Shown here in pieces: positions 10,801 through 15,323 of a stretch of DNA of 64,000 nt. Every line of letters starts with the position of its first letter. Position 1 is the stretch's first letter. Below the pieces are notes generated by a model. It saw nothing but the letters and a program-made list of their open reading frames with translations, did no database searches and was not told the DNA's origin. The translations under genes were made by a program, and so were the position numbers. This stretch comes from Paraphysoderma sedebokerense (taxonomy: Eukaryota; Blastocladiomycota; Physodermatomycetes; Physodermatales; Physodermataceae): the NCBI GenBank assembly GCA_025602915.1, contig JAHLJZ010000052.1, positions 103,815 to 167,814 of the forward strand, written 5' to 3'.

Positions 10801-13800
10801 CGTACAATGCGGCCTCCACGTAAATAGCGTCAATGGTTAGACTGGCTTGATTCGGAAACTCGCATTTATGGATATAAATTTTAAAGCTCGACGTTATATC
10901 CCATAATGACATCCATTTAATGCTATTCACGTCTCGCCCCATAATAGTCACTTCTGAGTGAGATCCTACGCTGTCAGGAGATTCCTCCACATAGCACGCC
11001 TAATGTTATTGAGTTAGATTTCAGTGCAGCACTAACTGATGTGAAACTTTCAATTGTACCTCTTTGTCCAACTCCTCTTCATTGTCTTCGTCGGCTTCAG
11101 AGACATTCGGAAGAGTAGTTAATGTCAAGACAATTCGTTCTCCCTTACAAAACTGCCTTCTGACGTAGGCATAATTGATCATGGACGATTCCGGAACAAG
11201 GTATTCCTGAACACCAGAGATTTTGAAATAAAACTTCTCGTCATTATCTCCGTTTCGTAAGAACTTCTTATATTTCGAAAGGACACGTTGGATAATTTCG
11301 GATGGGGTATCGTACGCTGCATTTATCAATGTAAACTTTCAGCTTTCCTCCAAGTCATTTGTCTCTCTAGAATAAGATTTCTCCAACTTACCATCACATG
11401 ATACCGTTTTTACTACATGATTTTCAAGCGGCAAGTGCACTCGGAGATGCAGTTTACAACTGACCCCAGCTAACTTGCTAAGAATGTGAGGCGGAACTTT
11501 ACTAGATTCTATATTAGCACTGATATCTTGAATGTGCGAGTCTTTACTATTAGTTTTTACATCCCGCGAGACGCTAACGTAGTGAAAGATCAAGTTAGTA
11601 GACTGTAATGGAATGATTTAGTGATAACACTTGCTTGTTTAATCTTCTCCTGACAAGATCTATTTCTGGATTCTTCAAGGAGTCAAATCGATATAAACTG
11701 AAATTTATCAGGTTTCCGATGCCTTTACTTAACTGTTGGGCTTTTGGTCCAACGTCTTTTTTCTTCGAACACAGATGAATGGTTAAATCGGAGTGATGAA
11801 ACTCCCTGTATGTCGACAAGGTTCGACTAAGAGAGCCCACCGAGGTTAAGACACATTCACGGACTGGTTATGAATGATTTAATACTTACAGGACTTGGTC
11901 TTCGTCGAGAATTTCTACTCGATGCTTAGTTTTAGGGTGAACATACTGTAGAGAATATTGATTCATCTCGTAACGCAGTTGAGGGAAATCTTTTGATTTC
12001 CACAGAGATTCTTTAATCGAAAAAATGCTTTCGTCACCTTTTTAGATATTTTTAAGTTAATAAAATCTTTGCACACCAGCTAGGAGAAAAGAAATGCTTT
12101 ACCAGTAAACTTAAAGTCTAAACGCATTGGATCTTGAACCTGGTAAGAAATCTCTTTTTGTGGTATGATGAAGGATATAGCGAAAACTTGAGGGGAGGTA
12201 CTTCTGACAGAACTAACAGATTCGGGACGCATAAGAATTCGACTTGCGGTTGAGCTACGTTTCCCAGTAGAGCTGATAGGAGATGGAAGAGGTTCGTAGA
12301 ATTCAACAACTGATTCTGACTGAATCGACTGCCGTAGTACGTCTTCCGGCGAGATACGTGTGACTGGCCGTTCCGCATCTGACGGTGAACGTCTACTTCT
12401 GATCATATTTGTGGGCTCGTATGAAGGAGACGTTGGAGATGTGGGCGATAGTATGAAGGCTGTGGATGAATCAAGATCAGGTTCCGGATTGCTTATATTT
12501 ACTATTGGAAGTTGCGGGGGTTTGACAACGAGCGGAAGAGGAGGTAGAGGTTTCTGGTTGTCGCCCAGTGCACCAGGATCTCGGAGGGAGATGATGAATG
12601 TTGGTATTTCGTTCTGAGCAATGCATCGATTCACATAATCTAATTCATCAATGATGTCGTCCATATGCAGCTCCTGAAAGAGATAGGTTCTTGTTAATCA
12701 CAACCCTCGAAGCAGTATGAAGAAATGCGCATCATACCTCATCCAAAGATGGTATCTGCAATCTACAGTCACTCGAATCGAGCGTTTGCTTTGTCATTGA
12801 ATTCATTTTGGCAATCGCTTTTATCAATAACGCACCCGTGGTCATTCGCTTACTGATAACCATATTTGGTGATAGTCCATGGGGCATTTGAACCCTAACC
12901 ACAATATTCATACGAGCTCCAGCATCTTCTTGGGACTTGTGATACATTGCCAGATAATCGGAAGTATAGTTTGAGACGGTCGCGTAAACCGAAAGTGTAT
13001 TCGCTTGACGTGCAGGGCGATCTCTTAAGATCGTTAGACGGTGATTGGCGGTGTTTTCTGACTCTTCTGGAATATTGACAGTGGGAGTTGAAGCTGATGA
13101 TTTTCGCACAACCCGAATCGTGGGTACAGCACCACTCTGAAAAGCCTCTTTGACAAATTCCAGATCGCAAACTATCGTCGAAGGGGATAACACCTACGCA
13201 TATTATTTCGGTTAGAACGGAAGCATTCTCTCAGTCCTCAACTCACACGTACCTGGTCACTCTTGTCCGGTAGCAATTGAATTTCTTCTTTTGCAACATT
13301 GACTGCCAGCATTCGTTCCATCTTCTGTCGACACTTTTCCATCAACGCTTCCACAGTGATGTCATTCTTGACGGGCAAATTGGTTGATATTCCTCTGGGT
13401 AGCTCCACTCTAATAAACTTCAAATCACCTAACAAGGCGGTGCTACTCTGCCCATGCTTTTCGAGAACTGGTCGTTCTTTCGGTCGATTGGAATCATCAT
13501 CGATGGCAGGACTAGTGCTCGCCGCAACGGTACTTGTAGGAACATCAGACTCGCGGTTTTGCAAGTGTGGGTCCGACTTGGAATATGCCGCAATCACCGA
13601 GAAAACACTCTCATTGGATGCATTTGAATCGGTATCGTCATCGCTGTCCGGTCCCAACTGTATCTTAAAAATTGGCTCGGAATTTTCCACAACACATCGT
13701 TTAACGTATTCTAAGTCCTCTACGACGTCTTGTGGTTGTAACAACTAAGAGAATGATTAAGCTTAACATTTTAATTAAACATCAGAATAAAGACATATGC

Positions 13801-15323
13801 CTTACGTTTCCGTCGTAATCAAATATCAGCACCTCCGATTTCTTCAAAACAGAGCCCTGTAATCTCTATAAAGTGGGGAATGTCAGGTCAGTACAATCTC
13901 TCGAACCGAAACGGCTGAAAAAGCAAACCTTTATTTTGAGGAGTGCTTTCTCTAAAAGTGTATCCACTGTCATCCTTTGTACCGCCATAACATGAGTAGT
14001 GATACCATCAGGAAGCAACAATTTAATTATAACGGCGCTTGAAAGTTGTTTAGAAAGTTGCTTCTTCAAAGGCATTCCTTTCTCTGTCGTTAAAGATGGC
14101 ATGGATTTTGATGTGTTTTCCGGCGATGAATCCAGAACACTGGCTTTACTCGATAATGGTGATGGTTTGATAAGTGAGGCTGGCGACGGTTTATTAAGAG
14201 AGCCAGTATTTCTACGACTTGGAATCCCAGAGCTGGTCGATGAAATCGTACTTGAACCATTGCTGCTGTCCGTTTTGATCGAGTAAAAGGATTCCTTCTC
14301 CGCGAGAGATCGGCTTCCGATCGCCGTATCAGGATTTTCGGTATTTTCAGTAGCAATTTCCCCGAGAAGGTCATCAAAAGAACCACCCGGAATATGCAGG
14401 GTGAGAGGAGTATAGGGAGATCGAGGGGCAGCAATGTTATTCGTATCTAATCTCGGTTGGGAATCAGTTCGTAGAGAAGGAAGTGCTCCAAGAGACTGAG
14501 AAGAGGCAGCGCTGGATTCAGATATGATGGATTCTTCTGGAGAATGAGTCTTCGTTGTCTTGGAAGAGCTAAATAGGATATCATGCAAGGCAGAAGTCTG
14601 GGTGGCTGGCGGACAAGACAGAGGACCCTTTTTAGGATCGGTAGTGAATTCTGGTGTTTTGTGGGATGCTGAATAGGAACTGTATTGATGTTGAAATAGT
14701 ACTTGGAGCGGTCGAAGGGGTGACTTTTTAGCAGGTGAAATTTTAAATACAGGTGATTTGTGTTGTGCAAGGCACTTTTGGACGTATTCCAAGTTCTCCA
14801 ACACGGTGCTCAGATCCAATGCCTTTACAGAGATTTCAATTAGTTATACTACAGTTAATTCAATTTGTCATTCGTTTGTTTTCTTACCTTATTGTCCAAT
14901 TCTGTTGACATTTTTGTATGAGTTTTATCGTACTCTATATTATGAGTTTTCTAAGGCAACCATAAGAATTAGCTGGGGCAGGTGCAGAGATACAGAGTCC
15001 GAACCAGGCGACCTCACCTTTAATTTCTGCAGACCTAAATCCAGTATATTGTCGAGAGTTGTAGTTCGCTCCACTATGAACGTTGTAGTCATGCTGGATT
15101 CCGTGAAGACTAATTTCACAATTGCCGACGCAGTGGAGGCGAAAATGGATGACGTAGCGGTGAGGGAACGCTCGCGGTGAGTAGATGCCGGAGGATGCCT
15201 TGGTGTATTTCTAACAGTTTGGCTATCATAGTGCTTGACGTCGTCCTGTTTACCTGGCTGTGAAAATTCTCTATCGACGAGTGGTAACTTTTGCGCAGGT
15301 TTGGCTTTCGAGATGGATTCCAT
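7868..15323 (-). CDS. Class I PI3-kinase catalytic subunit with tandem N-terminal Ras-binding-domain modules
   Basis: Predicted lipid kinase making PI(3,4,5)P3 from PI(4,5)P2. The C-terminal half has the full p110 order: adaptor-binding domain (about 11.6-12.2 kb, through [16 protein letters not shown]), Ras-binding domain (11.0-11.6 kb, [14 protein letters not shown] to [15 protein letters not shown]), C2 (about 10.0-11.0 kb), helical domain (about 9.1-10.0 kb) and kinase (7.9-9.1 kb). The kinase has [12 protein letters not shown], catalytic [14 protein letters not shown]-type HIDFGHFLG and activation loop [13 protein letters not shown], which is class I. The last exon ends [17 protein letters not shown], like p110 tails. 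Ahead of the ABD, exons 1-7 (12103-15323, about 950 residues) encode four further RBD-like modules joined by Ser/Pro-rich linkers. Exon 7 (12103-12673) holds both the end of module 4 and the start of the ABD, so this is one gene. About 2000 residues versus about 1070 for p110. The first ATG at 15323 was used; an earlier exon is possible. Confidence 0.9.
12580..15130 (-). repeat. Four tandem RBD-like (ubiquitin-fold) modules inside the PI3-kinase gene
   Basis: Each module has a first half (two strands and a helix, pattern IVVKLxxPDGxxTxxxVxxxMTxxxLLEKAL) and a second half (pattern [23 protein letters not shown]) matching the end of p110 Ras-binding domains. First halves: [57 protein letters not shown] and [19 protein letters not shown]. 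Second halves: [60 protein letters not shown] and [20 protein letters not shown]. In module 2 the stretch VLIFDYDGN fills the place of p110 YILKVCG. Exon ends: 15018, 14888-14950, 13929-14822, 13806-13865, 13253-13744, 12738-13193 and 12103-12673; all introns between them are phase 0 apart from the last. Confidence 0.85.

Follow-up and report, generated by a model that had tools for sequence, protein, structure and literature searches.

Gene model and catalytic core

The stretch of DNA analyzed here (contig JAHLJZ010000052.1; 64,000 nucleotides, referred to below as the window) carries on its minus strand a gene for a predicted class I phosphoinositide 3-kinase (PI3K), in which a catalytic core of p110 layout is preceded by four modules that very probably are Ras-binding-type domains (RBDs). 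The gene occupies positions 15323-7868 and was modelled by eye from the sequence and from homology. In this splice model, 25 exons encode 1970 amino acids (aa), from an ATG at 15323 to a TAG ending at 7868; the 1970 codons are open, the splice phases are consistent, and the single stop lies at the gene end. The 24 introns are 59-80 bp long, and 23 of them have GT-AG borders. Intron 9 (window 11634) is of the GC-AG type with the donor GCAAGT, which was picked because it keeps the frame open between the adaptor-binding domain (ABD) and the RBD of the core. The gene runs past the interval 12103..15323 assigned to it in the original prediction, down to the TAG at 7868. The best sequence match of the protein in PDB is a p110gamma-type chain named PI3-kinase (603 bits, aa 901-1966), and the second best is named p110gamma (602 bits).

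The core starts with an adaptor-binding-type domain (aa 920-1018, 11763..12187, minus strand, as are all parts of this gene), which aligns collinearly with p110gamma though its Pfam scores are under the cut-off of 27 (PIK3CG_ABD, 21.1 bits in the whole protein; PI3K_p85B, 17.7 bits on the segment). It is followed by the canonical PI3K RBD (aa 1100-1190, 11111..11458; PI3K_rbd, 61.9 bits on the segment, with a phmmer match to p110gamma), a PI3K C2 domain (aa 1264-1369, 10389..10831), a helical (PIK) domain (aa 1443-1621, 9309..10103) and the kinase domain (aa 1708-1918, 8091..8987), the coordinates of the last three being assigned by hand (for C2 and helical, from the exon table). In a whole-protein Pfam scan the RBD (73.3 bits), C2 (71.5 bits), helical (161.3 bits) and kinase (225 bits) domains are all over cut-off and in class I order. 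The complete p110 layout originally claimed thus stands for these four domains, and the ABD-type domain, under its Pfam cut-off, is probable. The kinase domain contains a basic activation loop of class I type, a 16-residue stretch in the translation, and we take this basic motif to be the one for phosphatidylinositol bisphosphate (PIP2). The protein ends 4 aa past the end of the p110gamma alignment and the class II tail is absent; neither PX nor the C2 family PF00168 is among the seven Pfam families found in the protein. Judged from its sequence, the core is a class I PI3-kinase with the normal ABD-RBD-C2-helical-kinase layout, and the enzyme is predicted to produce phosphatidylinositol trisphosphate (PIP3).

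Array and kinase meet in exon 7 (12103..12673), a single open frame that runs from the second half of the fourth module through a 130-aa Ser/Thr/Pro-rich linker into the first part of the ABD. An exon with exactly these coordinates had been proposed to bridge module 4 and the ABD, and the locus had been taken for one gene and not two; the exon is open and in phase, and array and kinase are one gene in a single open model. In 7 of 7 exons the in-frame codon score is above those of both remaining frames on the same strand, by small margins; in exons 3 and 6 an antisense frame does as well or better.

The N-terminal modules

The four two-part repeats noted earlier ahead of the p110 layout are found as RBD-like modules M1 (aa 67-155, 14727..15125, with introns 1 and 2 inside), M2 (aa 387-473, 13649..14033, introns 3 and 4), M3 (aa 550-637, 13098..13420, intron 5) and M4 (aa 701-789, 12578..12908, intron 6). 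They are 87-89 aa long; M1 is the most divergent and has TESS at the PDG position. The linkers between them measure 231, 76 and 63 aa, with 130 aa after M4, and contain 27-42% Ser/Thr/Pro and 3-6% aromatic residues plus Cys. The M1-M2 linker (aa 156-386, 14034..14726; 41% Ser/Thr/Pro) is likely disordered, judging from its composition. The N-terminal part of the protein has a five-fold higher density of SP/TP sites than the kinase part (2.39 vs 0.48 per 100 aa).

All six module pairs are related in Smith-Waterman comparisons (z 7.2-19.5; for each pair, 0 of 1000 shuffles scored as high), and identity to M4 is 17-27%. All four modules have a phase-0 intron at one shared alignment position that immediately precedes the second half, and a second intron position is common to M1 and M2. 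The canonical RBD has one intron, in phase 1 and at a different position, and pairwise comparison of each module with this RBD gives z of only 0.1-1.4. Given the intron position shared by the modules and these low z values, the array is on this evidence the product of old internal duplication, and its modules were not recently copied from the canonical RBD.

Kinship with RBDs emerges when the four modules are combined. A four-module profile scores 36.2 (E 5.1e-6, 87 columns) against five PI3K RBDs (p110alpha, beta, gamma, delta and this gene), vs 18.5 for the best of 300 column shuffles and 12.1 for the reversed profile. The score is 29.9 when the RBD of this gene is left out of the template; as a yardstick, that RBD scores 49.4 against the other four. 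Against the RAF1 RBD the profile scores 25.5 over 31 columns, and against ubiquitin 9.8. The second half of the unit had been matched to the end of the p110 RBD, and a 12-residue stretch does align to Y-K-Y-I-R-S-C. In Pfam (gathering cut-offs 22 for PI3K_rbd, PF00794, and 25.7 for Raf-like RBD, PF02196), a hand-made module consensus scores 29.5 bits with Raf-like RBD, over cut-off, 16.0 bits with PI3K_rbd over the full profile length, under cut-off, and 13.6 bits with RA. By these consensus scores, the Raf-like RBD family is no more distant from the modules than the PI3K RBD is.

Positions that contact Ras point the same way. In a joint alignment of the four modules with the canonical RBD (92 ungapped columns), Lys or Arg is present in all five domains at exactly two columns, where composition would give 0.0034, and the same two are obtained in all four alignment settings. 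The first is the alpha1 lysine (p110alpha K227, p110gamma K251), and the second is the beta1 position p110gamma V223, aligned with Raf R59. At +3 from the alpha1 lysine, which by plain offset corresponds to the essential R230 of p110alpha, M1-M4 have K, R, R and S, respectively, and the RBD has K. The K227A exchange in p110alpha abolishes RRAS2 and KRAS binding, and V223K in p110gamma raises affinity (PMC11718114), while R59A in Raf lowers affinity about 30-fold (PMC3898410). The pattern at the contact positions fits Ras binding without proving it.

For structure prediction, exon-contiguous pieces consisting of the second half of a module, the linker and the first half of the next module were submitted to AlphaFold. 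In the resulting weak models the first half is beta-beta-alpha (in M3 with pLDDT 71-80 in blocks 111-150), and the second half forms a helix, with a strand after it in the better model. Of the best 50 of 117 Foldseek matches, 11 have a probability of 0.28-0.41, and every one of these bears ubiquitin, SUMO or UBL in its title; the others reach 0.16. These models are at most suggestive of a ubiquitin superfold.

Several results weigh against the modules being Ras-binding domains. None of the four passes a Pfam gathering cut-off singly: the best family is PI3K_rbd for M4 (19.4 bits, profile 16-101 of 106) and for M3 (15.9 bits, profile 19-105 of 106; Raf-like RBD 13.1), M1 matches PI3K_rbd in 21 aa of the last part only (14.4 bits), and M2 matches Raf-like RBD (14.4 bits) and has no PI3K_rbd match. 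In M1 and M2, unrelated families score close behind (CHS4, 14.2, and RcsC, 14.1, respectively). Raf-like RBD has no match in M1 or M4 and reaches 16.8 bits in the whole protein, under cut-off. Scored singly against the RBD template, M4 reaches 29.5, M1 20.5, M3 18.1 and M2 15.7, so that the signal of single modules is weak except in M4. The consensus also matches unrelated families: one from phage (16.9 bits) ranks above PI3K_rbd, and two others (14.9 and 13.9 bits) rank above RA. The module profile finds no p110 among PDB sequences, but six rows at chance level (best E 0.48), one of which is a Ras-associating (RA-PH) protein (E 0.91). The AlphaFold check proposed with the original prediction, carried out on module halves, gave a divided answer: the beta-beta-alpha fold and the ubiquitin-type titles at the top of the Foldseek matches are suggestive, but mean pLDDT is poor (47 and 59) and none of the 117 matches found at E up to 10 has E up to 0.001. 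As for contact residues, none of the modules retains K206 or K210, the beta2 lysines of p110alpha, and one retains T208; at R230 the joint alignment has a gap in each of the five domains, and plain offset places Ser there in M4. Lys also occupies the alpha1 position in p110beta, which prefers Rho-family GTPases, so this residue is no proof of Ras over other GTPases. The V193K exchange in p110alpha, the counterpart of p110gamma V223K, does not raise affinity (PMC11718114).

With both sides taken together, we are confident that the modules are Ras-binding-type domains, intermediate between the Raf-like and the PI3K type. The RBD identity first proposed for them is upheld by the profile match and by the conserved contact positions, but a pairwise match to the gene's own RBD is missing, and the Raf-like family is at least as close.

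Genome setting

Searches of the genome (27,287,198 bases in 195 contigs) were run exon by exon with profiles, and split genes can therefore be missed. The array has no second copy among the exon pieces whose best candidates were scored, with five of five matches inside this gene, and the one PI3K_rbd match genome-wide is its canonical RBD. Pieces of PI3Ka are over cut-off at three places (contigs C19 and C80, and this gene). Raf-RBD matches elsewhere in the genome number three, all under cut-off and with no array seen there, in a search that did not pick up the modules of the window either. The Raf-RBD-like stretch L039 (contig C75; 21.6 bits, under cut-off) lies in a gene that looks to us like a Sin1/AVO1-type TORC2 subunit, and L038 is presumably a UBX/TUG-type protein.

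With an E limit of 1e-12, the genome gives 19 matches to the Ras superfamily, and Rho-, Rab-, Ran-, Ras- and Rap-like ones can be read among them. Two of these genes carry a YDPTIE stretch, and we take L023 to be Ras-like and L015 to be Rap-like. Two pairs of Ras-family matches with identical scores, 13.8 kb apart (C83:14180-14722 and C83:27991-28533), suggest a duplicated segment. PTEN-type C2 is over cut-off at two places (L036 on C48, 53.0 bits; L037 on C33, 51.2 bits), which may mean that the genome also encodes a PIP3 phosphatase. Adaptor searches in the same exon-by-exon mode gave four p85 iSH2 matches, none over cut-off and with matches in 8 of 14 prokaryote controls as well, and one weak p101 match under cut-off. 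One of the weak iSH2 matches, L008, reads as a coiled-coil stretch. SH2 gave no match in the genome search, where no control rang either.

A Lys2-type aminoadipate reductase (TIGR03443) is represented by seven collinear pieces, none over cut-off alone (10 of 14 prokaryote controls ring below cut-off), and radial-spoke genes are over cut-off at two places. Given the diagnostic value of these genes for a flagellated fungus, they support, without proving it, assignment of the genome to a flagellated (zoosporic) fungus or a close relative.

Two other loci in the window lie on the plus strand. Positions 39140-40333 encode Sestrin (PA26, 193 bits), a regulator of the TOR pathway; together with the class I PI3K it hints that growth control in this fungal-type genome may have components like those of animals. 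Positions 16989-19184 contain a 731-aa open frame with no Pfam match at E 0.0001. By reading, a D-I-x-x-S-[YF]-[IM]-D-[ILF]-x-S-D unit occurs in it about four times, and a DNA repeat search yields one 51-nt pair (76%).

Proposed function and comparison with known systems

The most likely function, which we favor with moderate confidence, is that of a natural multivalent Ras/Rap-avidity PI3K, in which four RBD-type modules on Ser/Thr/Pro-rich linkers precede a normal core. Each of the five domains would bind Ras/Rap-GTP weakly. The flexible linkers would let several domains engage together, producing avidity, and recruitment would therefore rise steeply with the local density of Ras-GTP. The kinase would come to the membrane and stay there only at sites of dense active Ras, the canonical RBD beside the catalytic core would orient the enzyme on the membrane, and the outcome would be a steep, Ras-density-dependent PIP3 burst, largely independent of p85/p101 adaptors. 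Phosphorylation of the linkers could tune the response, in view of their high SP/TP density. The counting or cooperative Ras switch first proposed for this layout is plausible, and the array could let the enzyme sense the packing density of active Ras on the membrane. In its strictest form, as a pentavalent Ras-density sensor that fires only with several neighboring Ras/Rap-GTP engaged, in a kingdom surveyed as lacking class I PI3K and without p85/p101 adaptors, the proposal is tentative, and we lean slightly against it.

Alternatively, the modules could be RBD folds for other partners (different small GTPases or non-GTPase ligands), the array then combining inputs with no single-partner avidity. 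The low identity to M4, the differing beta2 strand, the varied +3 residue and the range of Ras-superfamily matches would suit such a role, but both all-basic columns are positions linked to Ras switch contact, and we consider it unlikely. The same two positions, basic in all four modules, argue against an array that no longer binds GTPases and acts in cis, by autoinhibiting the core or by making the kinase self-associate, as other ubiquitin-superfold scaffolds do. The divergent sequences and the lack of pairwise similarity to the canonical RBD are in favor of this role, and another brake may be needed since no p85-type inhibitor is over cut-off; it is nonetheless improbable.

Array and kinase might also be made separately, from two genes or by alternative transcripts. 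Exon 7 has internal ATGs, and a separate array could be a free Ras scavenger, comparable to engineered trimeric RBDs (PMC3898410). The open frame of exon 7 (12673-12103), in phase from M4 into the ABD, and the codon scores, best of the same-strand frames in all seven exons scored though by small margins and with antisense rivals in exons 3 and 6, make this very improbable. Least credible, with hardly any weight left to it, is a duplication of the ABD, which follows directly after the array and shares the ubiquitin-like superfold with the RBD. This identity was rejected because the module profile scores 1.45 (E 0.85) against the ABD pair (p110gamma and this gene), vs 33.6 against RBDs in the same analysis.

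Among the closest known systems, the class IB PI3K p110gamma and its relatives p110alpha, beta and delta share with the multivalent Ras/Rap-avidity PI3K proposed here the order of ABD, RBD, C2, helical and kinase domains and the class I-type activation loop. They differ in having one RBD and no N-terminal module array. The p110s work with p101/p84 or p85 adaptors, whereas neither p85 nor p101 is found over cut-off in this genome. H/N/KRAS bind p110alpha with a KD of 17-28 uM (PMC11718114); with affinities in the tens of micromolar, the share of Ras clustering in PI3K activation is a natural question. The module array is a natural experiment in this respect, in which stepwise removal of modules would read out avidity directly.

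Outside animals, Ras and a class 1 PI3K act together in macropinocytosis in Dictyostelium (PMC4374526). Amoebozoan class I/II catalytic subunits differ from the present enzyme in that they have only the four common domains, RBD included; the survey that describes them counts the RBD among the domains of class I/II catalytic subunits and reports no class I/II PI3K in fungi (PMC4617754). A second survey gives class III as the sole PI3K of fungi (PMC3024228). A class I PI3K in an apparent fungus contrasts with both, and if the fungal placement is true the timing of the loss of PIP3 signaling would be revised. The main text of PMC4617754 has no occurrence of chytrid or Allomyces, and PMC3024228 has none of Batrachochytrium or Rhizopus, so that the fungal sampling of the two surveys may not cover zoosporic lineages. 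PI3K terms do not occur in PMC10406608 or PMC8887899.

The layout had been thought undescribed, and in agreement with this none of the open-licence papers listed first for this layout, for fungal class I PI3K or for tandem and multivalent RBDs shows a PI3K with repeated RBDs. The modules themselves resemble the Raf-like RBD family (PF02196) in their consensus score and in the basic residue equivalent to R59, but differ from it in a second half that is PI3K-RBD-like and aligns to the p110 motif. RGS12 and RGS14 are natural proteins with tandem Ras-binding domains; they have two RBDs, and are RGS proteins with no lipid kinase. The RBD1-RBD2 unit of RGS14 binds H-Ras 1:1, through RBD1 (PMC2655719). 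In the engineered multivalent Raf RBDs (MSOR), two or three RBDs in a row gain avidity for Ras-GTP, and trimers of weak Raf RBDs capture Ras-GTP where monomers fail (PMC3898410). MSOR is a synthetic inhibitor and no enzyme, but by analogy the trimer shows that the avidity principle works.

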